Of a DNA stretch of 64,000 nucleotides, positions 36,990 through 52,281 are shown one piece after another. The stretch's first letter is position 1; every line of letters begins with the position of its first letter. The notes beneath the pieces were generated by a model. It ran no database searches and was not told the DNA's origin. It was given only the letters and a program-made list of their open reading frames with translations. The DNA lies in assembly GCF_002886045.1 (NCBI RefSeq), contig NZ_CP025791.1:5409001-5473000 (forward strand), given 5' to 3'. The DNA is from Flavivirga eckloniae. Lineage in GTDB: Bacteria; Bacteroidota; Bacteroidia; Flavobacteriales; Flavobacteriaceae. A program made the translations under genes and the position numbers.

Positions 36990-37744
36990 GATATTTGTGC
37001 TTTTAAAATATTTCTAAAACGTGTAGCACTTAAATAGTGATCTTCCAGTAGTTCGCCATCGTGCAATAAACTAAAGACTCCAAAACCAGAAGGTGCTTGC
37101 TGGGCTTCTTGCGCAGTTTCTATTTTGGTTATATTAAGATCGATTTCAAAATCCATAGCTGTGTTTAGCATTGCCTCAACAGATTTTTCATGCCAGGGAC
37201 ATTGATCGGCATATAATAAGTGCCAACCTTTATACTTTTTTTGTTGGGCAGTCCAATCGAATAGTTTAGGGGGTGCTGCTTCTGGGTTCCATGTTTTCGA
37301 ACACAATTCGAAGCGTCCGCGTTTATCAACTTCATCAAAATCAAGTCGTTTAAAAATGCGTTTATCGGCCATCCACGAACCTTTACTCGTCATGACGCAC
37401 AAGCCATCCATATTTTTTTCTTTGGCATCTTTTTCTGCCTCGTTTATTAGCTTGGATCCTAGCCCGAGGTTTCTATCTTTTTTGGAGTAAATATACATGC
37501 AGTGGATAAACATAAAAGTAGGCGCATTAACAGGCCGCCAGGCATCAACAGCAGGAATGTATTCTATATACCCAAGCATTTTATCGGTTTCGTCTTTCAG
37601 GATTTTTAGTTGCAATCCTTCTTCATATCGTTTTTCAAACCATTTTTGCTTGGCTTTGAATTCTGGTTTTTTAATGTCTTTAATGCAGAAGAGTGTTTCA
37701 TTAAGAACATTATCTGGTGTAACATTGGTGATTTTTGTATTCAT
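36986..37744 (-). CDS. GNAT acetyltransferase with C-terminal YoaP-like domain
   Basis: 252 residues. Residues 1-150 are a GNAT domain with the acetyl-CoA loop RNLGLGSKLINEAEKDA. Residues 165-252 resemble the YoaP domain found fused to GNAT in Bacillus and others, with a CPWHEKS thiol motif. Substrate unknown. It is co-transcribed with the alkD-like gene and starts 7 bp after the flavin-binding gene. Confidence 0.82.
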   Translation of the reverse strand: MNTKITNVTPDNVLNETLFCIKDIKKPEFKAKQKWFEKRYEEGLQLKILKDETDKMLGYIEYIPAVDAWRPVNAPTFMFIHCMYIYSKKDRNLGLGSKLINEAEKDAKEKNMDGLCVMTSKGSWMADKRIFKRLDFDEVDKRGRFELCSKTWNPEAAPPKLFDWTAQQKKYKGWHLLYADQCPWHEKSVEAMLNTAMDFEIDLNITKIETAQEAQQAPSGFGVFSLLHDGELLEDHYLSATRFRNILKAQIS

Positions 37745-37751
37745 TTTTTTG

Positions 37752-38207
37752 CTAAAAATTTCTTTCTTTTCCTGTTAAATCTTCAATTTCTATTTGAAAC
37801 ACAATAGGGAGCCCTTCCTTGTATATCTTGCTGGAAAACTCGCTTATATAATGAAGGTTTTTGTTTTCTATGTTTTTAACAATTTCTTTTACCCCTTCAG
37901 AAAATCTGTGAAGATTTATTTGAGCAGCATTGCCTTGAAACTCTCTATAAATGCCATGAACTAAAACAGATTTCCAATGGTTTACAGAGTTTATTTCTGC
38001 TACTTGTAAGGATACCGAATTGTTGTTGCGCATAGCCTTTATTTTCTGCCCGTTTCCAGAATACCCTATAATGTAATCCCTAATTTTATCGTAATAATAA
38101 GTAATTGGGATTGTATAGGGTCTGTTGTTAAAAATGTATGATAAGTACCCTATGTAGTTATGACTTAATAAAGCTCTGCATTCGTATTTTTCCAATCGTT
38201 TTATCAT
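37752..38207 (-). CDS. pyridoxamine 5'-phosphate oxidase-related flavin-binding protein
   Basis: A 151-residue protein of the split-barrel FMN-binding fold: CRALLSHNYIGYLSYIFNNRPYTIPITYYYD at the start, then GNGQKIKAMRNNNSVSLQV and HWKSVLVHGIYREF. Such proteins bind FMN, F420 or haem and are often found in stress regulons. A TGAT-N4-ATCA box lies 156 bp upstream, so it may belong to the regulon of the neighbouring stress cluster. Confidence 0.82.
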   Translation of the reverse strand: MIKRLEKYECRALLSHNYIGYLSYIFNNRPYTIPITYYYDKIRDYIIGYSGNGQKIKAMRNNNSVSLQVAEINSVNHWKSVLVHGIYREFQGNAAQINLHRFSEGVKEIVKNIENKNLHYISEFSSKIYKEGLPIVFQIEIEDLTGKERNF

Positions 38208-38362
38208 CGTTATATTGGGTTTAGAATATGTAATGAATGAGAGAACTGTTCGATAACTTGATCGATTACAATTAAGATATAAACAGCAATTTTACGTTTT
38301 AATGCCATAGATATAGTTTCTGAAAGTCAGACCAAATTATGCCATTAAAGTTGTTAAATCAA

Positions 38363-38374
38363 TGATATCAATCA
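38363..38374 (-). promoter_or_regulatory. candidate FNR-like box upstream of the flavin-binding gene
   Basis: TGAT-ATCA-ATCA matches the box found at the stress promoters. The expected -7 element on the minus strand at about 38333-38339 is imperfect (TAATTTGG), so the confidence is lower than for the other boxes. Confidence 0.35.
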
Positions 38375-38591
38375 GTTTCTGTTTTTTCTAGCTTATATTT
38401 TTACCATCCCCCATTTGTATAATCCTGCGCCCACATCTTTTTAATCAAGCCATGAATTATATAGATTTACACGAATAAAACCTCCATCATAATAGATAGC
38501 TTTCTCTACCATTCATAATCACAAATCAGACTTTCAGTCTGTTTTTACAATCCAGACCCGATTTAATTCTTTTATATTTCTGCGCTTTAAT

Positions 38592-38976
38592 TTATTAGTG
38601 AAACTCTATTTTGAAAAGTTGCGAAGCAAAGCATTCAAAATAGTAAGCAGAACTAATCCCGCTTCCTATGCTGAACTTGTTTCAGTATCTGGCGGGATCT
38701 TAGGTCTAATACCTCGAAGCTTGCTTCTGAATTTATAAAGAATATTTTCAATTGAATGCCTCGTACGCTTGCTTCGAGAGTTGTTTACGTATAAATAAAC
38801 ATATGTTACTTATTTGTAAACAATTTGTATTTAGGACCATTTGTGATAATTCGTAAGATTAGTGCCCATCTTTGTAAAATTATTATTTAACATGCTGCCA
38901 TAGTTGTGGGTACGCCGCAACTATAATAAAGGAGGGATTATTTATTAGTGAAATTCTATTTTGAAAAGTTGCGAAG
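38592..38976 (+). repeat. 35 bp direct repeats in an 800 bp gene-free gap
   Basis: 38592-38626 and 38942-38976 share TTATTAGTGAAAYTCTATTT and the following GAAAAGTTGCGAAG. The first copy also forms a ten-base hairpin, CTATTTTGAA with TTCAAAATAG. The segment between includes the common flavobacterial word ATGCTGAACTTGTTTCAG. I see no gene in 38208-39006. Confidence 0.65.
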
Positions 38977-39006
38977 ATCAATAAATACCTTATAATATTA
39001 AAGGCA

Positions 39007-39327
39007 TTAAAAATGCTGTTTTATTATGTTTATAATATCACCTTTATTCGGTACACCAGATTGTCGCCATACCTGTTTGTTATCTTTAAAGAGTATCATG
39101 GTTGGCACACCACATACCTGATATTTTGCGGCTAACGGTTGATTTTTATCAACATCAATTTTTACGATTTTTACCGCATCGCCCAGTTCTTCTTTTACTT
39201 GTTTTAGTATAGGAGCGAGCATTTTACATGGTCCACACCAATCTGCATAAAAATCTACTAAAACAATGGTGTTCGAATTTATAATGGTATTAAAACTGCT
39301 TTTCATTAGTGTCTTTTTTAAACTCAA
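39007..39327 (-). CDS. trxA: thioredoxin
   Basis: A 106-residue classical thioredoxin with the active site WCGPC (VDFYADWCGPCKMLAPIL) and the cis-proline loop VCGVPTMILF. It reduces disulfides in the cytoplasm. The start is either the ATG at 39327 or the one at 39306; both overlap the end of the upstream TerB-like gene, so they are translationally coupled and share the FNR-boxed promoter at 39737-39779. Confidence 0.94.
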   Translation of the reverse strand: MSLKKTLMKSSFNTIINSNTIVLVDFYADWCGPCKMLAPILKQVKEELGDAVKIVKIDVDKNQPLAAKYQVCGVPTMILFKDNKQVWRQSGVPNKGDIINIIKQHF

Positions 39328-39715
39328 TATCTAGTTTAGCTAACATAATCAATTCAGATTTATTTTTGCCGGAAAACGCAGAAGCGATTAACCCAGCAGT
39401 TTTCAATATAGCTATTTTAAGCGATTTGGAGAATAGAGGTTCATTGGTTCTTTTAAAAGCCATAAAATCATTATAACAACTTTCAACAGTGCGGTTTTCA
39501 TTCTCCATGGTGTTAAAGGTTGAAGCGATATAATGTTCTGCATCTGCTTTTGGAACACGGTGTTTTAAGCTTAAAATAGCATGTACATGATGGACGTTCT
39601 CTTTTAAAGCATCAAATTCTGCAGCTTCAATATTTTTATCTGCAAAAGCAACAGCATAAAACAGTTTGCCAAGGTTTTGGTAAAAAAGCATTGCTATGGA
39701 GTTATCGGCATTCAT
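39290..39715 (-). CDS. TerB-like helical protein
   Basis: About 141 residues from the ATG at 39715. The N-terminal helix LGKLFYAVAFADKNIEAAEFDALKENV resembles the TerB/DjlA-type helical bundle that starts with paired acidic residues. No enzymatic motif is seen. It shares a promoter with thioredoxin and is divergent from the kinase-regulator pair, so a stress role is likely (inference). The assignment to TerB is weak. Confidence 0.6.
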   Translation of the reverse strand: MNADNSIAMLFYQNLGKLFYAVAFADKNIEAAEFDALKENVHHVHAILSLKHRVPKADAEHYIASTFNTMENENRTVESCYNDFMAFKRTNEPLFSKSLKIAILKTAGLIASAFSGKNKSELIMLAKLDIEFKKDTNEKQF

Positions 39716-39736
39716 ATTAAGAGCACAATAGATAAG

Positions 39737-39811
39737 CAAAGCTAAGGACTTAATAGTTATTTATTAATGATATAAATCAGTATAAATCCAAATTCATTTT
39801 TCGTAAATTTG
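39737..39811. promoter_or_regulatory. divergent promoter with shared FNR-like box
   Basis: The box TGAT-ATAA-ATCA lies at 39768-39779 (centre 39773.5). To the left a perfect minus-strand -7 element, TAGCTTTG (39744-39737), is 29.5 bp from the centre and serves the TerB-like/thioredoxin pair. To the right TAAATTTG (39804-39811) is 30.5 bp away and serves the histidine kinase. This implies autoregulation of the two-component system. Confidence 0.65.
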
Positions 39812-39841
39812 AAATAATACCTTACAATTTAATCTGTCGCT

Positions 39842-41080
39842 ATGTTTCAGCATGATGTTTTTAATTTGTTATTTGAAGCTATCATTGAAGGCGTGATTGT
39901 GGTTGATGAAGATCAAAAAATTGTGGCCTCAAATGCTGCGGCAAAAAAAATGTTTGGTTATGAGGCAGATGAGATTATAAATAAACCGCTAAGCATTATT
40001 ATTCCTAAGGAATACCACGCATACCATAAGGAACAAACCCAAAAGTTTATTACGAAGCGAGATACCCGCGAAATGGGTAAAGGAAGGGATTTATACGCCG
40101 TAAAAAAGAACAAAGAAGTATTTCCTGTTGAAATTGGGTTAAACACGTTCGAGGTATACGACAAGGCTTATATATTAGCTTTAGTTACCGATATTTCTAT
40201 TCGCAAGCAATACGAAAAAAAAATACAAAGTTTAAACGCTGCGCTAGAGAAGAAGGTAGAAACCCGAACAAAGGAATTAAAAACGGTGGTAGCAGAACTT
40301 AAAACTGTGAATATTGAGCTTGATAACGAGAATAAAAAACGGATTCAAGCCGAGAAAGATGCCAAGATTGCTCTTAAAAAAGAACGCGAACTTAATGAGT
40401 TGAAAACAAAATTCTTGTCGTTAGTGTCGCACGAATTTAAAACGCCATTAAGTGGTATATTAACCTCTACCATGCTGTTGAGCAAGTATAGGCTTTCCGA
40501 AGAACAGGAAAAAAGAGATAAGCATATTAAAATTATTGGCGATAAGGTGCATTATCTCAATAATATCTTAAATGATTTTTTATCTATTGAGCGGTTAGAG
40601 AAAGGCAGGGTAAAATACAGCCCCAGAACGTTTAAAATAAGCAAGGTGGTAAATGAGGTAGTTTACTATGCCAATATGCTGTTAAAGGATGGGCAAACGA
40701 TTAACTACCCAGAAAACATTGATGATTTTTCGTTGGTTCAGGATGAAAAAATCGTAGAATTGATCTTATCGAATTTAGTGTATAATGCCATAAAGTACTC
40801 TTCGGAAAATGCTATAATCGATATGGATATAAAACAGGACGATAAGGTAACGACATTTAAAATAAAGGACAACGGAATTGGTATTCCGGAAGCAGACCAA
40901 AAAAATATTTTTAACCGTTATTTTAGGGCAGAGAATGTGCTGTTAACACAAGGTACTGGTATCGGATTAAATATTGTAAAGCAGCATCTGGAAAATTTAG
41001 GAGGCTCTATTTCTTTTAAAAGTAAAGAAAATGTAGGAACAACATTTTATGTAAAACTACCCAACCGTTTAGAACTATGA
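39842..41080 (+). CDS. PAS-domain sensor histidine kinase
   Basis: 412 residues and no transmembrane helix, so probably soluble. Residues 1-120 are a PAS domain of the FixL/NtrY kind (ILALVTDISIRKQYE), residues 120-190 a coiled coil, H197 in SLVSHEFKTPLSGIL is the phosphorylated histidine, and the C-terminus has the N box (ILSNLVYNAIKYS), G1 (DNGIGIPEADQ) and G2 (GTGIGLNIV). The signal is unknown; the PAS suggests oxygen, redox or a small ligand. It overlaps the regulator gene by 4 bp. Confidence 0.95.
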   Translation: MFQHDVFNLLFEAIIEGVIVVDEDQKIVASNAAAKKMFGYEADEIINKPLSIIIPKEYHAYHKEQTQKFITKRDTREMGKGRDLYAVKKNKEVFPVEIGLNTFEVYDKAYILALVTDISIRKQYEKKIQSLNAALEKKVETRTKELKTVVAELKTVNIELDNENKKRIQAEKDAKIALKKERELNELKTKFLSLVSHEFKTPLSGILTSTMLLSKYRLSEEQEKRDKHIKIIGDKVHYLNNILNDFLSIERLEKGRVKYSPRTFKISKVVNEVVYYANMLLKDGQTINYPENIDDFSLVQDEKIVELILSNLVYNAIKYSSENAIIDMDIKQDDKVTTFKIKDNGIGIPEADQKNIFNRYFRAENVLLTQGTGIGLNIVKQHLENLGGSISFKSKENVGTTFYVKLPNRLEL

Positions 41081-42126
41081 AAAAAGTATTGTTAATAGAA
41101 GATGATACTGTTTTAAAGGAAAATACCCTGGAGTTATTAGAGCTTTCCAACTACGAGGTTATTACGGCGCCAAATGGAGAAGTAGGGGTAGATTTAGCTG
41201 TTAACGATATACCAGATGTTATTGTTTGCGATATTATGATGCCGGAAATGGATGGTTATCGTGTGTTCGAAATACTGTCTGAAAATGAGAAAACAAAGTA
41301 CATTCCGTTTATCTTTTTGTCTGCAAAAGCAGAACATACAGATATAAGAAAAGGTATGAATATGGGGGCAGACGATTATATTACAAAACCTTTTAGTGAA
41401 GAAGATCTTATATGTACTATAGAAAGCCGTTTGGCTAAAGCTTCAATCTTAAAGGATTGGAGAGATAAACCAGTTCTCCAAACGACTGAAGAAAACCAAA
41501 TTAAAACACTTAACGACCTAAAGAATTTTTTTGACGATAACGGAAAACAGTACAACTACAATAGCGAAGATATTGTTTACAATGAAGGTGATCACTCCAA
41601 TTTTATTTACCTTATAACAAAGGGGCTCATAAAAACCTATAAATTAAATGAGCAAGGTAAAGAACTTACAACAGCTTTGTATAAAGAAGATGATTTGTTT
41701 GGGTATACCTCGTTTGCTCAAAATATACCTTACCGGGAAACGGCAAAAGCTATTAAAGATTCACAGTTGGCAGCAATATCGAAGAGCGAATTCAGGGATT
41801 TACTAGATCACAATCATGAGGTTGCGATAGCACTCATACAGTTACTTACCGATAATTTAGCTGGAGTAAAAAATCAATTACTACAAATGGCTTACAGTTC
41901 TGTGAACAAAAAAACCGCAAAAACATTGGTTGAGTTTGCAAAAAAAATGAACAGAAAGCCAGAAGATCCTATAAAAATTTCCCGAAGTGATTTGGCAAGT
42001 GTTGCGGGCATTGCTACGGAGACATTAATTAGAACCATGACAAATTTTAAAAAGCAGGGTTTGATCGATATTGAAGGCAGACATATTAAAATACTAGATT
42101 TAGAAAAGCTACAACAGGTGTTTTAA
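41077..42126 (+). CDS. response regulator fused to CRP/FNR-type effector module
   Basis: 349 residues. Residues 1-120 are a receiver with D9, D10, phosphoacceptor D52 and K104. Residues 150-265 are a cyclic-nucleotide-binding-like beta barrel, and residues 275-349 a Crp-type winged HTH. The recognition helix, ATETLIRTM, keeps the E and R that contact the TGA step in CRP and FNR. No FNR-like cysteine cluster is seen, so phosphorylation probably replaces the usual ligand. It is the likely binder of the TGAT-N4-ATCA boxes nearby. Confidence 0.93.
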   Translation: MKKVLLIEDDTVLKENTLELLELSNYEVITAPNGEVGVDLAVNDIPDVIVCDIMMPEMDGYRVFEILSENEKTKYIPFIFLSAKAEHTDIRKGMNMGADDYITKPFSEEDLICTIESRLAKASILKDWRDKPVLQTTEENQIKTLNDLKNFFDDNGKQYNYNSEDIVYNEGDHSNFIYLITKGLIKTYKLNEQGKELTTALYKEDDLFGYTSFAQNIPYRETAKAIKDSQLAAISKSEFRDLLDHNHEVAIALIQLLTDNLAGVKNQLLQMAYSSVNKKTAKTLVEFAKKMNRKPEDPIKISRSDLASVAGIATETLIRTMTNFKKQGLIDIEGRHIKILDLEKLQQVF

Positions 42127-42138
42127 TACCTGATATCC

Positions 42139-42181
42139 TGATGAATATCATTTCATAAGATAAAGCTTCCCTTTAGTTTTG
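42139..42181 (+). promoter_or_regulatory. FNR-like box and -7 element of the first usp gene
   Basis: TGAT-GAAT-ATCA at 42139-42150 is followed by the -7 element TAGTTTTG at 42174-42181, 29.5 bp from the box centre. Given the usual start position, the box is centred near -41, a class-II activator site. Confidence 0.65.
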
Positions 42182-42206
42182 TTTATATTTTAAAAGGGAG
42201 GTCTCA

Positions 42207-43049
42207 ATGAAAAATATACTATTACCAACAGACTTTTCGGAGAATTCATGGAATGCGATAAGGTATGCCCTTAATTTTTTTGAAAACACCACCTGCGATT
42301 TTTATTTATTACATGTTACCAGATCAAATAATTTAGAAACCGGGGAGATGCCCTATGGGTTAACTCCAGAGCTTACAGATACTCATTATTTAAAACCGGC
42401 AAAAAAACAATTAAGGCAATTGTTAAAGCAGATAGCAAAACAATTTAGCCCTCGTAAAAATCATAGGTTTTATACACTAACAGATTACAATTTTTTTATA
42501 GATTCTATACGAAAGCATATCGAAAATAAAAAAATCGATATGATCGTAATGGGTACCAAAGGCGCATCAGGTTTAAAGGAATACATTGTAGGGAGTAATA
42601 CGGGTGATGTTATTAAAAAGGTACCATGCACTACATTAGTGGTACCCGAAAACACGTTGTATGCTGCAATTAAAGAAGTGGCTTTCCCAACAGATTTTTC
42701 GCTATCGTACAACATAAATACGCTGCAACCCATTTCGGAAATTGTTGAAGAAACTGGGGCTTTTTTACGTATCGTGCATATAAACAGAAATGGTGATGAC
42801 TTAAATGACGATCAGCAGGAATACAAAGGGATTATAGAAGATTTTTTTAATGATTATTCACACAGTTTTCATTTTTTAAACAATAAGAAAGTAGAAGATG
42901 CCATACAGTGTTTCGTAGAAAGCAGGGATATAAACATGATTGTCATGGTGGCAAAAAACCTAAACTATTTTCAGCAAATATTGTTTCATACCAGAGTAGA
43001 AAAAATAAGTTATCATACAGACATACCTTTTTTAGTACTTCACGAATAA
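42207..43049 (+). CDS. universal stress protein, tandem UspA domains (1 of 4)
   Basis: A 280-residue protein of two UspA domains. The first has ILLPTDFSENSWNAIRYAL and the ATP-type motif GTKGASGLKEYIVGSNT (G-x2-G-x9-G-S). The second is degenerate in this motif. UspA proteins act in stress survival and may bind ATP or signal. It is the first gene after the regulator and carries its own boxed promoter and a GGGAGG ribosome site. Confidence 0.93.
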   Translation: MKNILLPTDFSENSWNAIRYALNFFENTTCDFYLLHVTRSNNLETGEMPYGLTPELTDTHYLKPAKKQLRQLLKQIAKQFSPRKNHRFYTLTDYNFFIDSIRKHIENKKIDMIVMGTKGASGLKEYIVGSNTGDVIKKVPCTTLVVPENTLYAAIKEVAFPTDFSLSYNINTLQPISEIVEETGAFLRIVHINRNGDDLNDDQQEYKGIIEDFFNDYSHSFHFLNNKKVEDAIQCFVESRDINMIVMVAKNLNYFQQILFHTRVEKISYHTDIPFLVLHE

Positions 43050-43062
43050 ATATAAATATATT

Positions 43063-43446
43063 ATGGACAGTTCACTTTTTTTAGCAAAATTTTGGGGTTG
43101 GTATCTCATCATTTTTTTTCTCATATTAAGCTTTAATCCTAAGCGGATAAAACAAATATTTAACGATTTAAAAGATGAGAAATTTTTAATAATTACAGCC
43201 TTTGTAGCCATTATTGTAGGGCTGTTAAATATTTTGTTTCATAACATTTGGGAACCTAACTATAAACTTATTATAACCCTAATAGGTTGGTTGTCGTTAT
43301 TAGAAGGATTGTTGTTGTTTGTGTATCCTAAAAAAACGGTAATGTGGTTAGCCTTTATTAATATTAAACTGGTACAACTTATTTATATGCTTTTGTTTTT
43401 TGCAGGCATTTATTTACTTAGTATGGGCTACAATATTTTACCATAG
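43063..43446 (+). CDS. four-helix integral membrane protein
   Basis: 127 residues with four hydrophobic segments (about 10-22, 42-60, 68-90 and 97-123), so an inner-membrane protein. No motif is recognised. It lies 13 bp after the first usp gene and is probably co-transcribed with it. Confidence 0.75.
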   Translation: MDSSLFLAKFWGWYLIIFFLILSFNPKRIKQIFNDLKDEKFLIITAFVAIIVGLLNILFHNIWEPNYKLIITLIGWLSLLEGLLLFVYPKKTVMWLAFINIKLVQLIYMLLFFAGIYLLSMGYNILP

Positions 43447-43704
43447 TAAACCATCAAAAGAATACATTTTAAATACCATGTTTTTTAAGAATGTGATAAA
43501 AGTCATATTTAAGTATGGGCTTGCGCATTACATTTGCCTCATGATATAAAGTTCATAATAGATATTTAAGATTTGGTCTATATAAACGCAGTAATATAGA
43601 CAATCAAAGGGATTAGTGTTATTGTTCAAGAATATACTTTTAATTGTTCTTTAGCAGTAAAAGGTTTTAAAAATCAACTAAATAATAACACTAAACTTTT
43701 TTGT

Positions 43705-43732
43705 GAAGCAGGGAGTTTCTGCTCCCTGCTTC
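43705..43732. other. strong hairpin in the gap after the membrane protein gene
   Basis: GAAGCAGGGAG-TTTCTG-CTCCCTGCTTC is a perfect 11-base stem. No U tract follows on either strand, so it is not a clear terminator. The gap 43447-43803 holds nothing else recognised. Confidence 0.6.
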
Positions 43733-43803
43733 TGCAAGGAAGGTCGATTTTCCAGACCATTTTCATTTTCTCAAATTTTTTCCAACAATACAATAAGCTT
43801 ATC

Positions 43804-43846
43804 TGATTAATATCATTGTATCTTTTTTGTAGGGGTGTTATTTTTA
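43804..43846 (+). promoter_or_regulatory. FNR-like box and -7 element of the second usp group
   Basis: TGAT-TAAT-ATCA at 43804-43815, then TATTTTTA at 43839-43846, one base off TAnnTTTG, again exactly 29.5 bp from the box centre. Confidence 0.6.
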
Positions 43847-43872
43847 AGAGGTTCGTTATAAATAATAGAGTT

Positions 43873-44724
43873 ATGAGAAAAATATTGATTCCAACAGATT
43901 TTTCGGCTAATGCTACAAATGCTATTAATTATGCTTTAGAACTTTTTAAGTATGAGGTGTGTATCTTTTATTTCATGCATGCGTTTCAAGACGATATTTA
44001 TACAGACGAAGCTTTATTGACTAGAGAAGCATTAAGTGAAACGACCAAGATTGTTGGCGATCAATCTCAAAAAGAATTAGAAACTACCTTAAAAGACGTT
44101 AAGGAAAGGTGTCCTAACCCCAGATTTAGCTATCGTATTATCGCTTCAAATAATGTTTTGGTAGACGAAGCCGATAAGATCGTAGACGAAGAAAATATAG
44201 ACATTATAGTTATGGGTACACGTGGCAAGACCAACGATAGGAAACTAAGCTTTGGAAGCCATACGTTGCAAGTATTAAAATACGTAGCATGTCCCGTTTT
44301 GGCTATTCCAGAAGGCTATAAATATACCCAACCTAAGCATGTGCTATTTCCAACAAACTATTTAATTCCGTTTAAGAGAAGAGAGCTTAAGTTATTATGC
44401 GAAATGCTATTTCCTTTTAGGGCTAAAATAGACATGCTTTACGTTTCAATAAATGATGGGTTATCATTAAGACAAGAAGATAACAAAGCTTTTGTAGCAG
44501 AATCGCTTCGTAAAAATAACGTCAACTTTTATACCGTAAAAAAGAAACAAATAACAAGAACCATTAACGCATATATAAACGAAAAAGCTATAGACATGCT
44601 GGTTATGGTTAATACGAGACATTCCCATCTGGAAAATATACTATTTCAATCCAGATTCGATAAAATAGGGTTGAATATTAATATTCCATTTCTGGCATTA
44701 CAGAATATAAAGAGAGACACTTAG
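43873..44724 (+). CDS. universal stress protein, tandem UspA domains (2 of 4)
   Basis: About 283 residues from the ATG at 43873; the longer frame to 43816 overlaps the promoter. The first domain has KILIPTDFSANATNAINYAL and GTRGKTNDRKLSFGSHT; the second is more degenerate. It opens the three-gene usp run downstream of the boxed promoter. Confidence 0.92.
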   Translation: MRKILIPTDFSANATNAINYALELFKYEVCIFYFMHAFQDDIYTDEALLTREALSETTKIVGDQSQKELETTLKDVKERCPNPRFSYRIIASNNVLVDEADKIVDEENIDIIVMGTRGKTNDRKLSFGSHTLQVLKYVACPVLAIPEGYKYTQPKHVLFPTNYLIPFKRRELKLLCEMLFPFRAKIDMLYVSINDGLSLRQEDNKAFVAESLRKNNVNFYTVKKKQITRTINAYINEKAIDMLVMVNTRHSHLENILFQSRFDKIGLNINIPFLALQNIKRDT

Positions 44725-44748
44725 TAAAACAATTTTAAACTTATAATT

Positions 44749-45585
44749 ATGAAAAGGATATTATTACCCACAGATTTTTCAGATAATTCCTGGAATGCGA
44801 TTAAGTACGCTTTGGAATTGTTTAAAAACGACACCTGTACGTTTTATATGCTTAATACGTACACACCTGTTGTTTACCATGTAGAATATGTTTTAGTGAA
44901 TCCGTCCCAGTTTGGTTTAGCAGATTCTATTAAGAAAGTTTCAAAACGAGAACTGGAAGCTTTTTATGAGAAAATTAAGAAGACGTTTAATAATCCCAAC
45001 CATAGCTTTGAGTGCCTATCTAAATTCAACTCGTTAATACCAGAAATAAAAGAACAGGTTAAGGAAAAATCAATAGACCTTATTGTTATGGGAACAAAAG
45101 GAGCTACAGGGGCTGTAGAAGTACTCTTTGGTTCCAATACGGTACATGTATTAAACCAGGTGAAATGTCCGGTTTTGGCAATTCCAGATCATTTTAGTTA
45201 CGAAAAACCACACGAAGTATTATTTCCAACAGATTACGAAGTTGCGTTCGAAAACAAACATTTGGGATTACCTCTCGAAATTGCTAAAAAACATACATCT
45301 AGAATTAATGTGTTACACGTATCGTACGGTTACGATTTATCTGAAACACAAGAAAAGAATAAGCAGCTTATAGAACATGAGCTAAATGAAACAACAAGTC
45401 TCTTTCACGATGTTAGCAATCAAAATGTAGAAGATGCAATTAATAAGTTTCAAACGAAAAATAAAGTTAACATGCTCATTATGATTAATAATAAGCACTC
45501 CTTTTTCGAAAATTTATTCTTTAAAAAATTAATTAATCATATAGGATTTCATTTAAAGATTCCATTTTTAGTGATTCCTTCTTAA
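44749..45585 (+). CDS. universal stress protein, tandem UspA domains (3 of 4)
   Basis: 278 residues. The first domain has RILLPTDFSDNSWNAIKYAL and GTKGATGAVEVLFGSNT, the full ATP-binding type; the second starts at HEVLFPTDYEVAF and lacks the glycine motif. It follows the preceding usp gene by 24 bp without a separate box. Confidence 0.93.
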   Translation: MKRILLPTDFSDNSWNAIKYALELFKNDTCTFYMLNTYTPVVYHVEYVLVNPSQFGLADSIKKVSKRELEAFYEKIKKTFNNPNHSFECLSKFNSLIPEIKEQVKEKSIDLIVMGTKGATGAVEVLFGSNTVHVLNQVKCPVLAIPDHFSYEKPHEVLFPTDYEVAFENKHLGLPLEIAKKHTSRINVLHVSYGYDLSETQEKNKQLIEHELNETTSLFHDVSNQNVEDAINKFQTKNKVNMLIMINNKHSFFENLFFKKLINHIGFHLKIPFLVIPS

Positions 45586-45598
45586 ACAACAAAAAGCA

Positions 45599-46438
45599 AT
45601 GGAAACAAAAAATATGAATATTTTATTGCCCACCGATTTTTCAGATAATTCATGGAGTGCAATTGTTTACGCATTAAAACTTTATGCAAACGAGCCTTGT
45701 ACATTTTACATTTTAAATTCTGCACATTTAAAAGTATCAGCAATGTCCGATATGTCCAATAAAATTGTGAAGGTCATGAAGGATAACGCTATAAAAGAAC
45801 TGTTGGAATTAAAGAATTTAGCAGAAAATGCCAATGCCAACGCCAACCATGAGTTTGAAACCATACTAAGTCTGGAAGATTTAAAAACGGGCATACAAAA
45901 AGCAGTAGAGAAGTATGCTATAGATCTAGTTGTTATGGGAACCAAAGGGGCAACAGGAGCTAAAGAGGTTTTCTTTGGTAGTAATACCGTGAGAATTATA
46001 AAAAAAATGAGGAAATGCCCCGTTTTAATAATTCCAGAAGATTACGATTTTGTTAAACCAGAACAGATTGCTTTTCCAACCGATTTTAACCGATTTTATG
46101 GCCAAGTTGAATTACAACCGTTAAAAGATCTGGCGGCGCTCTATAATTCTGAGATTCGTATCGTGCACATTAATGCAGAAACTAAATTAAATGAAGTACA
46201 GGAGTATAACATTTCGTCCTTGCAGAGCTATTTGGAAGATTTTGAACATAGTTTTCATTGGATGCCAGATTACTCAAAAAAGGCAGTAGAAATCAATGAT
46301 TTTATAGAAGAACTAAAAATAGATGTTCTTGCTATGGTTAATTACAAGCACAGTTTTATAGAAAGTATCGTTAACGAACCAGTTATTAAAACAATAGGCT
46401 TTAGTCCTAAAGTACCTTTTTTGGTAATTCCAGATTAA
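45599..46438 (+). CDS. universal stress protein, tandem UspA domains (4 of 4)
   Basis: 279 residues; an ATG five codons in (MNILLPTDFS) is an alternative start. The first domain keeps GTKGATGAKEVFFGSNT; the second begins QIAFPTDFNRF. It closes the usp run, 13 bp after its neighbour. The four copies share one architecture, so they arose by tandem duplication. Confidence 0.93.
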   Translation: METKNMNILLPTDFSDNSWSAIVYALKLYANEPCTFYILNSAHLKVSAMSDMSNKIVKVMKDNAIKELLELKNLAENANANANHEFETILSLEDLKTGIQKAVEKYAIDLVVMGTKGATGAKEVFFGSNTVRIIKKMRKCPVLIIPEDYDFVKPEQIAFPTDFNRFYGQVELQPLKDLAALYNSEIRIVHINAETKLNEVQEYNISSLQSYLEDFEHSFHWMPDYSKKAVEINDFIEELKIDVLAMVNYKHSFIESIVNEPVIKTIGFSPKVPFLVIPD

Positions 46439-46510
46439 AATGACTTTTATCATATGATTTCGAAAGCGTAAAAATTAACTTTAGTAGTAATTTTTAAAAA
46501 CACCTAATAA

Positions 46511-46912
46511 ATGAAAAAATCCGGAGTTTGGTTAGATAAAGAAAAAGCACATATCGTTACTATTAATGGTGAAGAAGAGACGTTTGTTACTATAAAATCT
46601 GATGTGGATACCCATCATGTTACAGGAGGCTCAGGTACTAGATTTAAAGGCGGGCCTCAGGATGTTGTACACGATAGTAAGTATATGGAGCGGGAAAAGT
46701 TTCAGCTAAGAACTTACTTTAAAAACATTATACCCCATATAAAGGAATCTGGAAAAATAGCCATTTTTGGACCTGCAGAAACGTTTCAGAAATTTAAAAA
46801 AGAACTACAGCTAAATTATACAGGTATAGACAAGAAGGTGATAGAAGTAGAGCGAGCAGATAGTATGACGGATAATCAAGTAAAAGCATTGGTAAGAGAT
46901 TTTTTTAAATAA
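46511..46912 (+). CDS. small stress-cluster protein, possibly eRF1/Dom34-N-like
   Basis: 133 residues. The opening SGVWLDKEKAHIVTING and the later ESGKIAIFGPAETFQKFKKEL resemble small bacterial proteins annotated near the N-terminal domain of Dom34/eRF1 or host-attachment proteins. The central segment is H/G-rich (THHVTGGSGTRFKGG). Function unknown; if the kinship holds, it may act on stalled ribosomes. It lies within the usp cluster with no boxed promoter of its own. Confidence 0.6.
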   Translation: MKKSGVWLDKEKAHIVTINGEEETFVTIKSDVDTHHVTGGSGTRFKGGPQDVVHDSKYMEREKFQLRTYFKNIIPHIKESGKIAIFGPAETFQKFKKELQLNYTGIDKKVIEVERADSMTDNQVKALVRDFFK

Positions 46913-46938
46913 CACTAAAAACCGGTTTTATTGATAGC

Positions 46939-47781
46939 ATGCAAAAAAACAGTATCGATATCATTAAATCATCAGGAGAAAAAGTAAAATTCTCATTAGA
47001 AAAACTTCGTAATTCTTTAACGAATACAGGGGCAGAAGATACCGTTGTTCAACAAATAATCGATACTGTAATAAGCGAATTATACTCAGGCATTTCAACC
47101 AAAGAAATATATAACCGGGCTTTTGCCTTACTTAAAAAAAAGAAGAGTTATTTTGCTTCAAGATATAAACTTAAAAAAGCGATATACGAATTAGGGCCTA
47201 CGGGTTTTCCGTTCGAACGTTTTATTGGAGCTGTTTTAAAATACTCAGGCTACGAAATTCAAATAGATAAAACCTTGCAGGGCAAATGCGTAAACCACGA
47301 AATAGACGTTATAGCCACCAAGAATAACAAAACCCATATAATAGAATGTAAGTTTCATGGAGAGCAAGGGCTAAACTGCAACGTAAAGGTACCCTTGTAC
47401 ATTGGTTCGCGTTATAACGATGTAAAAGCGAATTGGCATTCCAGCACCAAAAAAGAAACCACATTATCATCATGTTGGGTTGTAACCAACACAAGATTTA
47501 CTAAAGACGCTTTGGCGTATGGCAATTGTATTGGACTATACTTGTTAAGTTGGGATTATCCGAAAGGAAACAGTTTAAAAGAAAGAATAGATAGGTTAGG
47601 GCTGTACCCAATAACCGTATCTACGCTACTTACCAATAGAGAAAAACAATTTTTATTAAGCAGGGATATAGTGCTCTGTCGCGAGTTAATTGGAGACGTT
47701 TTTTATCTAGACCATCTAGGCATTTCCAATACCAGAAAGGAAAAAATACTTAACGAAATAAAACACCTTTGTAAACATTAA
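46939..47781 (+). CDS. ATP-cone domain fused to Mrr-like nuclease domain
   Basis: 280 residues. Residues 5-85 are an ATP-cone (IDIIKSSGEKVKFSLEKLRNSL), the nucleotide-sensing module of ribonucleotide reductases. Residues 88-200 are a PD-(D/E)xK Mrr-like nuclease with E93, D123 in HEIDVIATKNN and ECK at 136-138 (IIECKFH). The C-terminus is helical and may be helix-hairpin-helix. It could be an adenylate-gated nuclease. It lies between small stress proteins and a beta-CASP nuclease. Confidence 0.82.
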   Translation: MQKNSIDIIKSSGEKVKFSLEKLRNSLTNTGAEDTVVQQIIDTVISELYSGISTKEIYNRAFALLKKKKSYFASRYKLKKAIYELGPTGFPFERFIGAVLKYSGYEIQIDKTLQGKCVNHEIDVIATKNNKTHIIECKFHGEQGLNCNVKVPLYIGSRYNDVKANWHSSTKKETTLSSCWVVTNTRFTKDALAYGNCIGLYLLSWDYPKGNSLKERIDRLGLYPITVSTLLTNREKQFLLSRDIVLCRELIGDVFYLDHLGISNTRKEKILNEIKHLCKH

Positions 47782-47792
47782 AAAACAATAAC

Positions 47793-49166
47793 ATGGTCCA
47801 TTGTGCTAAAGTTCATTTTATGGGCGCAGCTGGTACAGTAACCGGTTCGAAATTTCTTATTGAAGCCTTTGGGAAAAACATACTTATAGATTGTGGTATG
47901 TTTCAAGGTCTTAAAGAATTGCGCAAGCTTAACTGGGATAAACTCCCGGTGAATGTTAAAGACATTGACATCGTATTACTAACCCACGGTCATTTAGATC
48001 ATGTTGGCTATTTGCCAAGGCTAGTAAAACAAGGTTTTCGAGGCGAGATAATAGGTACAGCACCTACGCTGGCTATTGCTGAGATTATACTTAAGGACAG
48101 TGCAAAAATCCATGAAGAAGAAGCAAAAAAAGCAAATGAGGAGCAATACACCAAACACGATCCTGCATTGCCATTTTATACCATTAAAGATGTTGAAAAA
48201 ACGATAACACGGTTTCGGGTAGAAATTCTCGATAGATGGAGAACCTTTTCCGGGCAAATATCCTATCGTTTTCAATATAATGGTCATATTATAGGAGCGA
48301 CCTTTATTGAGCTTGATATAAACGGAAAACGTTTTGTGTTTTCCGGTGATATAGGCAGGAGTAACGATGCGTTGTTAGACGATCCTAAGAAACCAAAATG
48401 GGTCGATTATTTATTTCTGGAAAGCACCTATGGCGATAAGCACCACCCAGATGAGAATCTAGAAGCATTGCTTTCAGTATTAATAAAGGATACCATTAAC
48501 AAAAACGGAAACTTAATTATACCAAGTTTTGCAGTAGAACGCTTGCAAACACTTATGTATATACTTTGGAAACTCTACAAAAAGAACAAAATACCCAATA
48601 TCCCTGTTTTTGTAGATAGCCCAATGGGAAATAATGTATTAGAGGTTTTTAAACGATTTCCCAAATGGCACAAGCTATCTGTTTCCGATTACAATGCGAT
48701 GTGCAATCATGTAAATATTATTCAATCCTATAAAGAAACCTGGGAAACTATTGACGATGCAAGATCTAAAATAATTATAGCAGGCAGTGGTATGGTTACG
48801 GGAGGACGTGTATTAACATATTTACAGCAACTTATAGACGAAGAAACCACAACGGTTTTATTAGTAGGCTATCAAGCAGAAGGAACAAGAGGACGTCAAT
48901 TATTGGATGGCGCAAAGGATATTAAATTTTTCGGAAAATACTATCCCGTTAAAGCCAATATAAAAAATATAGAAAGCTTGTCGGCACATGCAGATCAACC
49001 AGGCCTTATAAATTGGTTGTCGGGTGTAAAGAATATTCCAGAAAGCGTATTTCTAATCCACGGCGAATCATCAGCCTTAAAAAGTTTAAGCATTAAAATT
49101 AAAGATACATACGGTTGGCAGGTAAGCAGCCCTAAATTACATGACACTGAAACACTAATTATATAA
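47793..49166 (+). CDS. beta-CASP metallo-beta-lactamase ribonuclease
   Basis: 457 residues. The metal-binding motif HGHLDH (H65, H67, D69, H70) is in VLLTHGHLDHVGYLP; VFSGDIGRSND and FLESTYGDKHH follow. The beta-CASP part has IPSFAVERLQTLMYIL, IIIAGSGMVTGGRVL and SLSAHADQPGL. This is the CPSF73/YsgA-like group of RNA nucleases. It begins 12 bp after the ATP-cone nuclease gene, so RNA or DNA processing under stress is suggested. Confidence 0.92.
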   Translation: MVHCAKVHFMGAAGTVTGSKFLIEAFGKNILIDCGMFQGLKELRKLNWDKLPVNVKDIDIVLLTHGHLDHVGYLPRLVKQGFRGEIIGTAPTLAIAEIILKDSAKIHEEEAKKANEEQYTKHDPALPFYTIKDVEKTITRFRVEILDRWRTFSGQISYRFQYNGHIIGATFIELDINGKRFVFSGDIGRSNDALLDDPKKPKWVDYLFLESTYGDKHHPDENLEALLSVLIKDTINKNGNLIIPSFAVERLQTLMYILWKLYKKNKIPNIPVFVDSPMGNNVLEVFKRFPKWHKLSVSDYNAMCNHVNIIQSYKETWETIDDARSKIIIAGSGMVTGGRVLTYLQQLIDEETTTVLLVGYQAEGTRGRQLLDGAKDIKFFGKYYPVKANIKNIESLSAHADQPGLINWLSGVKNIPESVFLIHGESSALKSLSIKIKDTYGWQVSSPKLHDTETLII

Positions 49167-49178
49167 ATAAAAAGAATT

Positions 49179-49595
49179 ATGAATACTACAACCGAATTCA
49201 GAAGTTTTTATCGGGATATGAATGCAGAAGAATTACTTAACGATACTAAGAAATGGAAAAAACGCATAAACTTTTTACAACAAGAGTTTGCCTTTTTAAG
49301 CAGTTTGTTAGAGGCTAATATATTTAACCCAGAAATCAATGACTTATTCGAAACGCTGCTATTATATAAAGAAGAAATAGGAAATATTACCAACGAAAGC
49401 AATAAGATTTTAGATAGCTTAATATCCCATGAGAGCCACATTGAAATATATCTTGAAAGCGACGATATAAATTTCGATCATGTTTTTATTGAAATACACT
49501 CGAAAAAAGAATACGACGTTACCGTTTTTTTAGAAGAAACAAACAAATTCAAAATACAACTGTACGACTATATTAAAAGAGTTGTAATAAGATAA
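49179..49595 (+). CDS. small coiled-coil protein (paralogue of 50213-50656)
   Basis: 138 residues, helical and charged, with heptads at about 25-60 and 65-90. WKKRINFLQQEFAFLSSLLEANI resembles the start of the protein at 50213-50656, so the two are paralogues flanking hsp20. Function unknown; both probably form helical bundles. Confidence 0.65.
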   Translation: MNTTTEFRSFYRDMNAEELLNDTKKWKKRINFLQQEFAFLSSLLEANIFNPEINDLFETLLLYKEEIGNITNESNKILDSLISHESHIEIYLESDDINFDHVFIEIHSKKEYDVTVFLEETNKFKIQLYDYIKRVVIR

Positions 49596-49621
49596 TTAAG
49601 CACAAAAAATCTTTGTCAAAC

Positions 49622-49664
49622 TGATGGATATCATTTGGTAAAATGTTTCATATCATTAAGTTAG
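49622..49664 (+). promoter_or_regulatory. FNR-like box and -7 element of hsp20
   Basis: TGAT-GGAT-ATCA at 49622-49633 precedes TAAGTTAG at 49657-49664, one base off TAnnTTTG, at exactly 29.5 bp from the box centre. Confidence 0.62.
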
Positions 49665-49699
49665 AGACTATACAAGTTTAACTTTTAAATATTAGATCC

Positions 49700-50146
49700 A
49701 TGACACTTATTAGATTTAACAATCGGAACAGATTATTCCCTTGGAATAATGGTCTAAAAAATTTTTTAGGCCATGATGATTTTTTTAACGATGATTTCTT
49801 TGGAGAAGATAGTCTAATGCCAGCGATGAATGTGAAGGAGGACGATAATAGCTTCGAAATTGAATTTGCTGCTCCCGGATTTAACAAAACGGACTTTGAG
49901 GTTACAATCGAAGACGACATGTTACATGTATGTGGAGAAAAAAGAAAGGAAGAAGAAGAGAAGGATGAAGGTTATACTCGTAAAGAGTTTAGTTACAATT
50001 CATTTAAAAGATCTTTAAAATTACCAATCTCAGTAAATCAAAACGAAGAAGTAAGAGCCATTTACGAAAATGGTATTCTAACATTGAAATTGTTGAAAAA
50101 CGAAGAAGCAAAACAATTACCAAAAAAAATAATTGAAATTGCTTAA
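49700..50146 (+). CDS. Hsp20/alpha-crystallin small heat shock protein
   Basis: 148 residues. The alpha-crystallin domain runs from about 45 to 135: MNVKEDDNSFEIEFAAPGFNKTDFEVTIEDDMLHVCGEKR, then FKRSLKLP, and the closing YENGILTLKL. The N-terminal W/F-rich region (FPWNNGLKNFLGHDDFF) is typical for client binding. It holds unfolding proteins under stress. It has its own boxed promoter and a strong terminator. Confidence 0.95.
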   Translation: MTLIRFNNRNRLFPWNNGLKNFLGHDDFFNDDFFGEDSLMPAMNVKEDDNSFEIEFAAPGFNKTDFEVTIEDDMLHVCGEKRKEEEEKDEGYTRKEFSYNSFKRSLKLPISVNQNEEVRAIYENGILTLKLLKNEEAKQLPKKIIEIA

Positions 50147-50151
50147 ACCTA

Positions 50152-50188
50152 AAGAGCAGAAAAAAACTTTAAAGTTTTTTCTGCTCTT
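50152..50188 (+). terminator. rho-independent terminator of hsp20
   Basis: AAGAGCAG with CTGCTCTT, extended by A7/T6, forms a long hairpin with a CTTTAAAG centre just after the hsp20 stop. Confidence 0.85.
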
Positions 50189-50212
50189 ACGATGAGTTAA
50201 AACTTAATCGCA

Positions 50213-50656
50213 ATGAAAGCAAAACCAAAAGTAATTAAATACGTAGAGTGGCTTAATGCAGATGTCATGCATGAAGCATCGCGCAGGTGGTTATCGGAAT
50301 TACGTTTTATAAAGGACGAGCAACAGTTTTTCGAGAATCTCATAAAATCGTATACCCTTCAATTAATAGAATCGCCACATTTTGCAAACAGCAAAAAATT
50401 AATAAAAATATTAAGCACTTTAAAAAAGAAAAATAAGGTACTAATCGAAACAGTGAAAACTCACGAAAATGAACTTTTAATATTGGTAGATGGTATAGAT
50501 CAATTAAAAGAAGAAGAAGCATATAAAAACAAACACAGAGTCCTTATAATAGAAATGAATAAATATTTTAAAGATTATAAGGATTTAAAGAAGTATTTAT
50601 TTGAAACTATAGAACGTATCATGAAGAATGAAAAACAAAAGCGATTACTTCAATAA
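50213..50656 (+). CDS. small coiled-coil protein (paralogue of 49179-49595)
   Basis: 147 residues, helical and lysine/glutamate-rich. WLSELRFIKDEQQFFENLIKSY resembles the N-terminal part of the protein at 49179-49595. Function unknown. Its stop codon falls within the start of the heptamer tandem repeat that follows. Confidence 0.65.
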   Translation: MKAKPKVIKYVEWLNADVMHEASRRWLSELRFIKDEQQFFENLIKSYTLQLIESPHFANSKKLIKILSTLKKKNKVLIETVKTHENELLILVDGIDQLKEEEAYKNKHRVLIIEMNKYFKDYKDLKKYLFETIERIMKNEKQKRLLQ

Positions 50657-50719
50657 TCAATAATCAATAATCAATAATCAATAGTCAATAATCAATAGTC
50701 AATAATCAATAGTCAATAA
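50650..50719 (+). repeat. heptamer tandem repeat (TCAATAR)
   Basis: About ten units of TCAATAA or TCAATAG in a row, with the last six alternating TAG and TAA. It lies just upstream of the lipoprotein gene and overlaps the stop of the preceding gene. Confidence 0.9.
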
Positions 50720-50735
50720 TTTAAGCCATAAACCT

Positions 50736-51407
50736 ATGAAACCATTAACGGCGTTGTTTTTATTTTTAGTAATAATAGGATGTTCTTCAATAGAACTTAT
50801 AGAGTACTGGAAAAATCCAGATATAGATACTTTCAAATCCAGTAAAGTTTTAATTGTTGGCATGACACCAAATGTAGAAGCAAGGCATCAATTTGAAAAG
50901 CAATTAAAAGAAGCCTACCAGACAAGAGGTATAGAGGCCGCAATGAGTTTAGATGTTTTCGAACCAGATTTCACTATAGATGAAAAAACAGAAGAAGATA
51001 TAAAACGTATAGAAAACATTTTAATTGCTAATAATTTCGACGCTGTATTATTTACTAAGGTAATAGGAGTAGAAGATAAAATCGTATACAAAGATGATTA
51101 CGATAGTTACGATAAAACACATCTAAGGTTTAAAGAAGACTATCTAAAATATCAAGACATATATTATAATCCGGATTATTATGAAGAATATACGGTTTAT
51201 CATACAGAAACATCATTATATTGCTTATGTCCAACAAAAGACAGAGAATTAATCTGGAAAGGATACATAAACATTACAGACCCGCAATCTATTTCAGAAA
51301 CAGTAAACGATTACGTTCGATTAGTAGTTGTTGTTTTAGAAGAGCAACAACTTATGTCCCCAAAAACTATAAAAGAGGAAGAGTTACATAAGGAAGCTAT
51401 CAATTAA
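50736..51407 (+). CDS. lipoprotein of unknown function
   Basis: 223 residues. A lipoprotein signal with C16 (FLFLVIIGCSS) predicts anchoring in the inner or outer membrane. The mature part starts with a region like SKVLIVGMTPNVEARHQFEKQLKEAYQTRGIEA, a Rossmann-like pattern seen in some DUF4136-like lipoproteins, and ends in a beta-rich, tyrosine-rich segment. It closes the stress cluster. No catalytic motif is seen. Confidence 0.75.
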   Translation: MKPLTALFLFLVIIGCSSIELIEYWKNPDIDTFKSSKVLIVGMTPNVEARHQFEKQLKEAYQTRGIEAAMSLDVFEPDFTIDEKTEEDIKRIENILIANNFDAVLFTKVIGVEDKIVYKDDYDSYDKTHLRFKEDYLKYQDIYYNPDYYEEYTVYHTETSLYCLCPTKDRELIWKGYINITDPQSISETVNDYVRLVVVVLEEQQLMSPKTIKEEELHKEAIN

Positions 51408-51777
51408 TTTATGCCTAAAATGATAAACTGTATTTATTATACAGACAAGGTAATGATCTAGTAATCAGTAGAAGTATGGGGTGTGGAGGTCGTAGCTTAA
51501 AAACTACATATAAATATTACCTTAATTTATTGAAATCATAACGGCAATTTTAAATATATATTTGTAAATTGTCCAATAAGTACAAATCTAAAAGAACCGT
51601 CATTAATCCTATTTATTATACCTATATATATAATAGCATTTTTATTAATAAGAAAAGTTACAAATATATCTGTAAGTAATAATTTTCATTTTATCAGATT
51701 ATAGGAAACTGTAACTCACTCAAAACTATACTTTTTTATAAAATATAGGATAAAATGCAAAAAAATCGGTCAAAATG
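51408..51777. other. gene-free gap before the gliding/T9SS locus
   Basis: AT-rich with a small hairpin near 51430. No gene, TGAT-N4-ATCA box or large repeat was noticed. Confidence 0.4.
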
Positions 51778-51807
51778 TTGTTTTTTAAGATAAATTGTAT
51801 AGTTTTG
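51778..51807 (+). promoter_or_regulatory. textbook Bacteroidetes promoter
   Basis: TTG at 51778-51780, exactly 19 bases, then TAGTTTTG at 51800-51807, matching the TTG-N19-TAnnTTTG sigma-ABfr consensus. The ATG at 51835 follows at 27 bp. Confidence 0.8.
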
Positions 51808-51834
51808 TCATTCATAATCAAGAAAATTTGTAAT

Positions 51835-52281
51835 ATGAAAATGAAAATTATTTTTTTAAGTCTTAGTTTGTTTTTAATAACAGGAGCAACTTTTGCTCAG
51901 AAAAAAGATGTACCAAAAAGTATCATCAGTGAAAAAGTAGGTATTAAAAAATACCATGATAAAGAAGAGTTAGATCGTATGCAAAAAGGTCAATTGTTAG
52001 AACTTTATATCGAGCGAATCAAACTTCTTGTTAAAACTTTACCATACATTGCGTTTGCTACCAAGCCAGGAGTAACCATGTCTACTTTAGGGATTCCTAA
52101 TACAAAAGATAATAGAGAAACCTTAGATGACGAGTTTGAAGCTTCGGATGCTTTTCTGGAAACAACCCTTAATTTCCAAAGGACCATGTTACCATACTCA
52201 GATAAGAGTAATTTAGTAGCAGCCATTATATTTTATGAAGATACAATGAAAGCATTACACGAGTATAGTGAGTTTCGCTAA
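51835..52281 (+). CDS. small exported protein of unknown function
   Basis: About 148 residues from the ATG at 51835; the frame runs back to 51775 but that part overlaps the promoter. Residues 1-22 are a signal peptide ending TFAQ. The mature part is helical, with no cysteines, and I recognise no family. It stands alone between two gaps and may belong to the surface locus downstream. Confidence 0.65.
   Translation: MKMKIIFLSLSLFLITGATFAQKKDVPKSIISEKVGIKKYHDKEELDRMQKGQLLELYIERIKLLVKTLPYIAFATKPGVTMSTLGIPNTKDNRETLDDEFEASDAFLETTLNFQRTMLPYSDKSNLVAAIIFYEDTMKALHEYSEFR

Follow-up and report, generated by a model that had tools for sequence, protein, structure and literature searches.

A putative two-gene oxygen-response system with a receiver-fused CRP/FNR regulator in Flavivirga eckloniae and related Flavobacteriaceae

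Introduction

The window analysed here is a stretch of 64,000 nucleotides from the genome of Flavivirga eckloniae (NZ_CP025791.1, positions 5,409,001 to 5,473,000), and the system in question consists of a sensor histidine kinase gene followed by the gene of a response regulator, REC-CRP, in which a receiver domain (REC) is joined to a CRP/FNR-type activator. It is rather likely that the pair constitutes a two-gene oxygen-response system, composed of a FixL-like kinase and a fused FixJ/FixK-like regulator, which works beside FNR.

According to this proposal, the PAS domain of the kinase would bind heme and, when oxygen falls, the kinase would phosphorylate the receiver of REC-CRP. The phosphorylated regulator, which would unite in one protein the receiver (the role of FixJ) and a FixK-type activator, would then bind TGAYNNNNRTCA boxes, usually followed by T and centred near position -41.5, and activate class-II promoters whose TAnnTTTR -7 element lies exactly 23 bp past the box. 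Its predicted targets include the usp (universal stress protein), hsp20 and thioredoxin units nearby and, in relatives, the cbb3 oxidase; small RNAs are possible further ones. Many relatives would have a second reader of these boxes, a distinct FNR-like protein that carries cysteines, and this probably applies to the window's genome as well. In this scheme, DNA binding, phosphorylation, heme, the oxygen signal, the direction of control and the transcription starts are what we infer, while the boxes, their spacing, their conservation and the association of site number with REC-CRP and with FNR are computed directly.

Box promoters in the window and its genome

The main elements of the window are the following, where the gap is the number of base pairs between the box and the -7-like element.

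38332..38374, minus strand: box 38363-38374 with a weak -7-like element (TAATTTGG) at gap 23, some 125 bp upstream of the pyridoxamine-oxidase-like gene 37752-38207
39737..39779, minus strand: box 39768-39779 and -7-like TAGCTTTG (39744-39737), gap 23, serving the pair of 39290-39739 and thioredoxin
39804..39811, plus strand: -7-like TAAATTTG facing the kinase operon, gap 24 from box 39768
39842..41080, plus strand: sensor histidine kinase with FixL/DosP-like PAS (His62, Arg82), HisKA and HATPase_c (Pfam, PDB matches)
41077..42126, plus strand: REC-CRP/FNR response regulator with receiver, cNMP-binding fold and Crp helix-turn-helix (HTH) (Pfam; conservation)
42139..42181, plus strand: promoter of usp 42207 (box and -7-like element, gap 23)
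42207..43049, plus strand: universal stress protein gene with the best-conserved promoter (Pfam)
43494..43536, plus strand: box and -7-like TACATTTG, gap 23, no gene directly downstream in the list of open reading frames (ORFs)
43804..43846, plus strand: box and -7-like element of the second usp gene, gap 23
46441..46483, plus strand: box TGACTTTTATCA and -7-like TAACTTTA, gap 23, upstream of gene 46511
49622..49664, plus strand: box and -7-like TAAGTTAG, gap 23, upstream of hsp20 at 49700
49700..50146, plus strand: small heat-shock protein hsp20 (Pfam)

The consensus of the Bacteroidota -7 element is TAnnTTTG. An initial annotation of the window had reported four exact TGAT-N4-ATCA boxes with spacings of 29.5 or 30.5 bp, and the scan of the window finds the boxes (39768, 42139, 43804 and 49622) and the spacings exactly as they had been placed. 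Measured from the box centre to the first T of the -7-like element, four distances are 29.5 bp (box 39768 on the minus strand, TAGCTTTG; box 42139, TAGTTTTG; box 43804, TATTTTTA; box 49622, TAAGTTAG) and one is 30.5 bp (box 39768 on the plus strand, TAAATTTG). The first T of the E. coli -10 element stands at -12; if the same holds for the first T of the -7 element, the box centre falls at -41.5. The fixed distance between box and -7 element is observed in the sequence, and the class-II position near -41.5 is predicted from it.

When the rule is applied to the window it returns seven promoters, all with a gap of 23 (38363 minus, 39768 minus, 42139, 43494, 43804, 46441 and 49622), and the one facing the kinase with a gap of 24. 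Three of them had been overlooked in the initial annotation. Two, 43494 and 46441, have boxes whose variable position is occupied by G or C; the third, the minus-strand promoter 38363, has a weaker -7 element, TAATTTGG. A further minus-strand match at 39904, with a gap of 22, lies inside the kinase gene and was taken as chance.

The window holds seven exact boxes, two of them intragenic (39140 and 39904), against 1.42 expected, a number reached in none of 100 shuffles. In the whole genome of 5.67 Mb, the box taken by itself is barely commoner than the reversed pattern (157 versus 141 sites), and it was rejected as evidence because its count is close to that control. It is the spacing that departs from chance: TGAT-N4-ATCA-N{10,40}-TANNTTTG has 11 matches in the genome, seven of which have a gap of 23 or 24 (binomial p 1.2e-6), and four of eight do so when the three matches of the window are removed (p 0.001). 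The spacing holds in this genome scan, which the initial annotation had proposed as a check.

Spacing rule in relatives

The relatives comprise the best 80 of 582 confirmed REC-CRP loci, gathered in one contig scan and amounting to 1.59 Mb. Most are Flavobacteriaceae by title, some being metagenome-assembled genomes (MAGs) named to order, class or phylum only, and they are not 80 species, given that L103 and L128 belong to one strain and L087 and L107 to one MAG. Across these loci, TGAY-N4-RTCA followed by TAnnTT occurs 416 times at a gap of 23, versus 10, 17 and 12 times at gaps of 22, 24 and 25, which agrees with the class-II-like fixed spacing originally proposed. When TGAT palindromes are followed over gaps of 0 to 60, 59 of the 83 TAnnTTTG matches are found at 23 and at most three at any other gap; 11 of 12 control palindromes give zero at gaps of 23 and 24, and the twelfth, TGAC..GTCA, gives 26. 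At the gap-23 sites, 96% of the boxes are followed by T, and the -7 element ends in G or A about equally.

A gap-23 box lies at most 300 bp downstream of the regulator gene in 79 of the 80 loci, mostly upstream of a relative of usp 42207, and relatives of the pyridoxamine-oxidase-like gene have at least 10 gap-23 sites upstream (the names of the genes downstream of the 416 sites are nearest-ORF guesses, and at least 49 sites have none). A chance origin of the boxes in an AT-rich genome, to which the near-equal counts of the bare box and its reversed control might seem to point, is refuted as regards the spacing by the gap-23 peak, present in the window's own genome and in relatives, together with the site conserved after the regulator in 79 of 80 loci, and its probability is close to nil.

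The two sides of the kinase differ in this respect. The divergent promoter on its far side has a gap of 23 in 52 of 78 loci, while towards the kinase 19 of 78 loci lack a box in 300 bp and the gaps are scattered (two at 20, two at 21, three at 23, five at 24, three at 25, one at 26 and two at 27). Autoregulation of the kinase operon from the 30.5 bp promoter, as initially read, was rejected, since this spacing is not kept across the 78 loci.

The reach of the rule has a boundary. In 14 loci of other Bacteroidia families, of about 4 kb each, the spacing is not enriched and a single site is found at a gap of 23, which tells against a wider validity; for this reason the rule is claimed for Flavobacteriaceae only. 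Eight further Flavobacteriaceae loci yield 10 sites at gap 23.

Regulator and sensor kinase

REC-CRP matches PF00027 with 66.9 bits and PF13545 with 56.2 bits, both above their cut-offs; by Pfam, its output domain is a Crp-type HTH and not the LuxR HTH of FixJ type, and the NCBIfam Fnr model matches its CRP part below the cut-off. The receiver residues D9, D10, D52, S82 and K104 are intact in 81 of 81 aligned sequences, and the phospho-acceptor Asp, D52, together with the kinase directly upstream in 78 of 80 loci (both misses begin at contig ends), is what characterizes a two-component response regulator. Residues E315, I318 and R319 of the recognition helix are likewise invariant (81/81), and E315 and R319 correspond to the residues with which CRP/FNR regulators contact TGA. 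No N-terminal cysteine cluster of the FNR type was found in the 81 sequences, where the only columns with cysteine in more than 30% of the rows are 51 (79/81, in the receiver) and 187 (57/81, absent from the window copy). The receiver, the retained E and R and the lack of iron-sulfur (Fe-S) cysteines noticed in the window copy hold throughout the alignment. In this alignment of REC-CRP sequences, the cAMP-pocket segment appears to differ from the pocket residues of CRP. At E ≤1e-40, matches to REC-CRP occur in 58 of 395 genomes drawn from the phylum, including its own; 56 of these genomes share its class, and in the remaining two the match is partial.

With regard to the kinase, DosP and FixL head the sequence matches of its PAS domain in the PDB. 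A profile built from 22 kinases matches DosP and FixL at E 4e-21 to 6e-16, the heme-binding PAS 10jx being among them, and LOV at 2e-9. The first seven fold matches of the AlphaFold PAS model are FixL and DosP, followed by a LOV-FixL kinase chimera. Aligned with DosP, His62 corresponds to residue 77 and Arg82 to residue 97, and His77 is the heme ligand of DosP. His62 is present in 77 of 79 aligned kinases, with variable neighbours. At the level of sequence, the kinase has the proximal His, the conserved Arg and the HisKA/HATPase domains of a FixL-type heme-PAS kinase, and a simple pattern finds FixL-like PAS stretches near REC-CRP in 4 of the 14 loci of other Bacteroidia families.

The kinase probably binds heme, and oxygen is probably the signal, sensed via the kinase and relayed by phosphorylation, because its PAS domain matches the FixL and DosP heme sensors. 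The initial view that the trigger would not be oxygen is not supported, on account of this likeness. Two features of the kinase argue in the opposite direction: the model has a mean predicted local distance difference test (pLDDT) score of 79 and falls below 50 at 60-72 and 74-79, in the heme loop, which is why the placement of the His rests on the alignment; and Arg82, found in 63 of 79 kinases, is missing in 16.

That Arg82 is not universal also speaks for another idea, in which REC-CRP is the protein at the boxes and the kinase responds to a cue other than oxygen, such as redox state, nitric oxide (NO) or light, or has no ligand at all. Structure titles record FixL with NO, CO and cyanide, and LOV domains match the PAS fold too, at weaker scores; the best sequence and fold matches, however, are oxygen sensors, and cbb3 oxidase, one of the predicted targets, is a low-oxygen enzyme. 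This idea is accordingly regarded as unlikely, and oxygen is kept as the probable cue in what follows.

Which regulator reads the boxes

The genome of F. eckloniae has six HTH_Crp_2 matches, five of them above the cut-off, and the E..IR helix is kept in three of its CRP/FNR proteins: REC-CRP, an FNR-like protein encoded at L033 12858-13586 near the cco genes (named by reading translations), and a protein with the motif CxxCxxxxC. The FNR-like protein has six cysteines in 14 of 14 aligned sequences, its own copy included (these 14 come from 30 loci, the others having been removed by a motif and length filter). The third regulator, at L034 8202-8960, has neighbours whose translations suggest cytochrome c biogenesis and nitrite reductase, and it is a possible further user of the boxes.

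TGAYN4RTCA-N23-TANNTTTR was counted in 149 genomes of 148 genera, about one genome per genus, with presence cut-offs (E <1e-70 for REC-CRP and 1e-50 for FNR) that were set after the tables were made; G018 (1e-43) and G040 (1e-45), which have FNR-like matches, count as FNR-less. The mean number of sites per genome is 27.0 with both regulators (n=43), 11.2 with FNR only (n=53), 16.6 with REC-CRP only (n=31) and 1.2 with neither (n=22), and the reversed-pattern control gives 0 to 4 matches per genome. Site number is associated with REC-CRP and with FNR, and the two effects add up, the expectation from the single effects being 26.6 for genomes with both. The window's genome has 26 sites. In G065 and G086, the sole match to the FNR query (E ≤0.001) is REC-CRP itself, and these genomes have 14 and 18 sites and a box before ccoN; in G069, none of the seven sites is more than 12 kb away from REC-CRP.

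The same picture emerges from ccoN, counted without the weak second match L209 and the partial matches L211-L213. Among the 31 genomes with REC-CRP only, 28 have ccoN, and in 27 of these a box with its -7 element at gap 23 precedes the gene, starting 248 to 348 bp upstream. In a sample of 30 of the 53 FNR-only genomes the figures are again 28 with ccoN and 27 with the box. A full-length ccoN is present in one of the 22 genomes with neither regulator, G018, which has the box and, on that contig, an FNR-like gene that has diverged. The presence of ccoN goes with having either regulator (Fisher p 5e-14; the p values ignore kinship among genomes).

These data bear on the possibility that the FNR-like protein is the main user of the boxes, and that REC-CRP binds elsewhere or modulates it. 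The location of the FNR-like gene near the cco genes, its conserved cysteines, and the sites and ccoN boxes of genomes with FNR only would all fit; what makes it quite improbable is that the 31 genomes without a close FNR retain 16.6 sites on average and, in 27 of the 28 with ccoN, the ccoN box, that two of them lack any other FNR-query match, and that site numbers are additive. The initial annotation had allowed that another FNR-type protein might be the true binder: such a protein is indeed present and genomes with FNR only use the same box, but REC-CRP appears to be sufficient where the FNR-like protein is absent. Site number, 16.6 versus 1.2 without either regulator, supports REC-CRP as a likely binder. 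Its FNR-like paralogue seems to work through an identical box and spacing, and it probably reads the boxes in the window's genome too.

Several observations weigh against the proposal. Genome G017, of the same genus, has 18 sites without a close REC-CRP, which speaks against an exclusive role of that regulator, and shares 94% identity with F. eckloniae in the FNR-like protein; G121 has 10 sites though neither regulator was called; ccoN has no box in G037, with REC-CRP only, nor in G075, with FNR only. Three proteins of the window's own genome keep the E..IR helix, and any of them may act at a given box.

Targets and short RNAs

Within the window, 39290-39739 has no match above the cut-off in Pfam or NCBIfam, which leaves its former name, TerB, without support, although its promoter is conserved. 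The called TTG start of the usp ORF 43816-44724 falls within the promoter, and the gene behind box 43804 probably starts at ATG 43873. The regulon had been considered self-contained, a description that no longer applies: outside the window, sites with a gap of 23 or 24 lie upstream of the cbb3 oxidase, pta-ackA, moeA beside napA, and a GNAT/YoaP-like gene (names obtained by reading translations).

Some box promoters of the relatives seem to have no gene behind them. The 80 loci contain 23 such candidates, but four or more (L092, L124, L129 and L131) are usp genes whose start was missed by ATG-only ORF calling. Eight RNAs were chosen by eye among the rest, with ends set by hand (72 to 103 nt); they align with a common hairpin, 13 of whose 14 pairs have a compensatory change in at least one sequence, followed in several by a T run. 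Each of these candidate box-driven short RNAs has the hairpin with compensatory changes:

L096 12417-12505: box-driven short RNA
L125 12421-12510: box-driven short RNA
L130 12420-12522: box-driven short RNA
L097 7233-7318: box-driven short RNA
L112 12409-12505: box-driven short RNA
L101 6652-6736: box-driven short RNA
L147 12523-12594: box-driven short RNA
L085 12419-12503: box-driven short RNA

In the window, the segment 43536-43800, between the two usp units and behind box 43494, folds better than 200 of 200 shuffles (z -4.58), and an RNA gene or a long leader is possible there. Its strong hairpin at 43705-43732 has no T run behind it and no clear terminator, Rfam gives no match at the gathering threshold in 36000-52000, and homology with the eight RNAs was rejected, their shared motif not being found there.

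FnrS, an enterobacterial small RNA, serves as a comparison for these transcripts. Chances are about even for a broader proposal, namely that Flavobacteriaceae have a shortened FixL-FixJ-FixK circuit, in which an oxygen-sensing heme-PAS kinase addresses a FixK-type activator directly by way of the fused receiver. The circuit would be interchangeable with an Fe-S FNR at a shared box and spacing, lineages having kept either or both and control of cbb3 passing between them, and it would also drive small RNAs with a role like that of FnrS.

Significance and comparison with known systems

Low-oxygen control in aerobic Bacteroidota seems to be little described. If the proposal is true, the fused regulator would explain why FNR-less genomes keep FNR-type boxes, and the system would be a natural case in which two ways of sensing, one by a heme kinase and the other probably by an Fe-S protein, converge on one DNA site. 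Box-N23-TAnnTTTR is, in addition, a sharp and testable promoter rule with which regulons can be predicted across a family. No paper on the kinase-regulator pair was found among the titles and abstract beginnings returned by searches of an open-access library, and the architecture itself may be on record in censuses of response regulators.

E. coli FNR reads the box TGAT-N4-ATCA from a class-II position near -41.5; the system described here has that box and, by prediction, that position. REC-CRP differs from it in that it lacks the N-terminal cysteine cluster and carries a receiver at the N-terminus instead.

A CRP/FNR homologue of Flavobacteriales has been predicted to be MalR-like and carbon-sensing, in a report whose excerpt describes no receiver fusion and which was not used here (PMC8510549). 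In Myxococcus xanthus, according to an excerpt of the report on NmpRSTU, a heme-dependent kinase pathway also controls the cbb3 oxidase, and universal stress proteins are mentioned; unlike here, that system consists of an NtrC-like regulator, a protoglobin sensor and a multi-component relay (PMC11841059).

A close parallel is found in the rhizobia (PMC7888657). There, FixK reads TTGAT-N4-ATCAA anaeroboxes, the cysteine-bearing FnrN reads the same box, and the anaeroboxes that activate are placed between -32 and -34 relative to the start of transcription (PMC7888657). The FixL-FixJ-FixK and FnrN circuit shares with the present one a FixL-type kinase, a receiver step, a cbb3 target (fixNOQP) and a common box (PMC7888657). 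The Flavobacteriaceae system differs in its phylum and promoter type, and in that the receiver and the CRP/FNR-type activator are fused, with no separate FixK needed. A mild shortage of oxygen brings hFixL into play in rhizobia and a severe one FnrN, both through one box (PMC7888657), and by analogy a two-stage logic of this kind may hold here.

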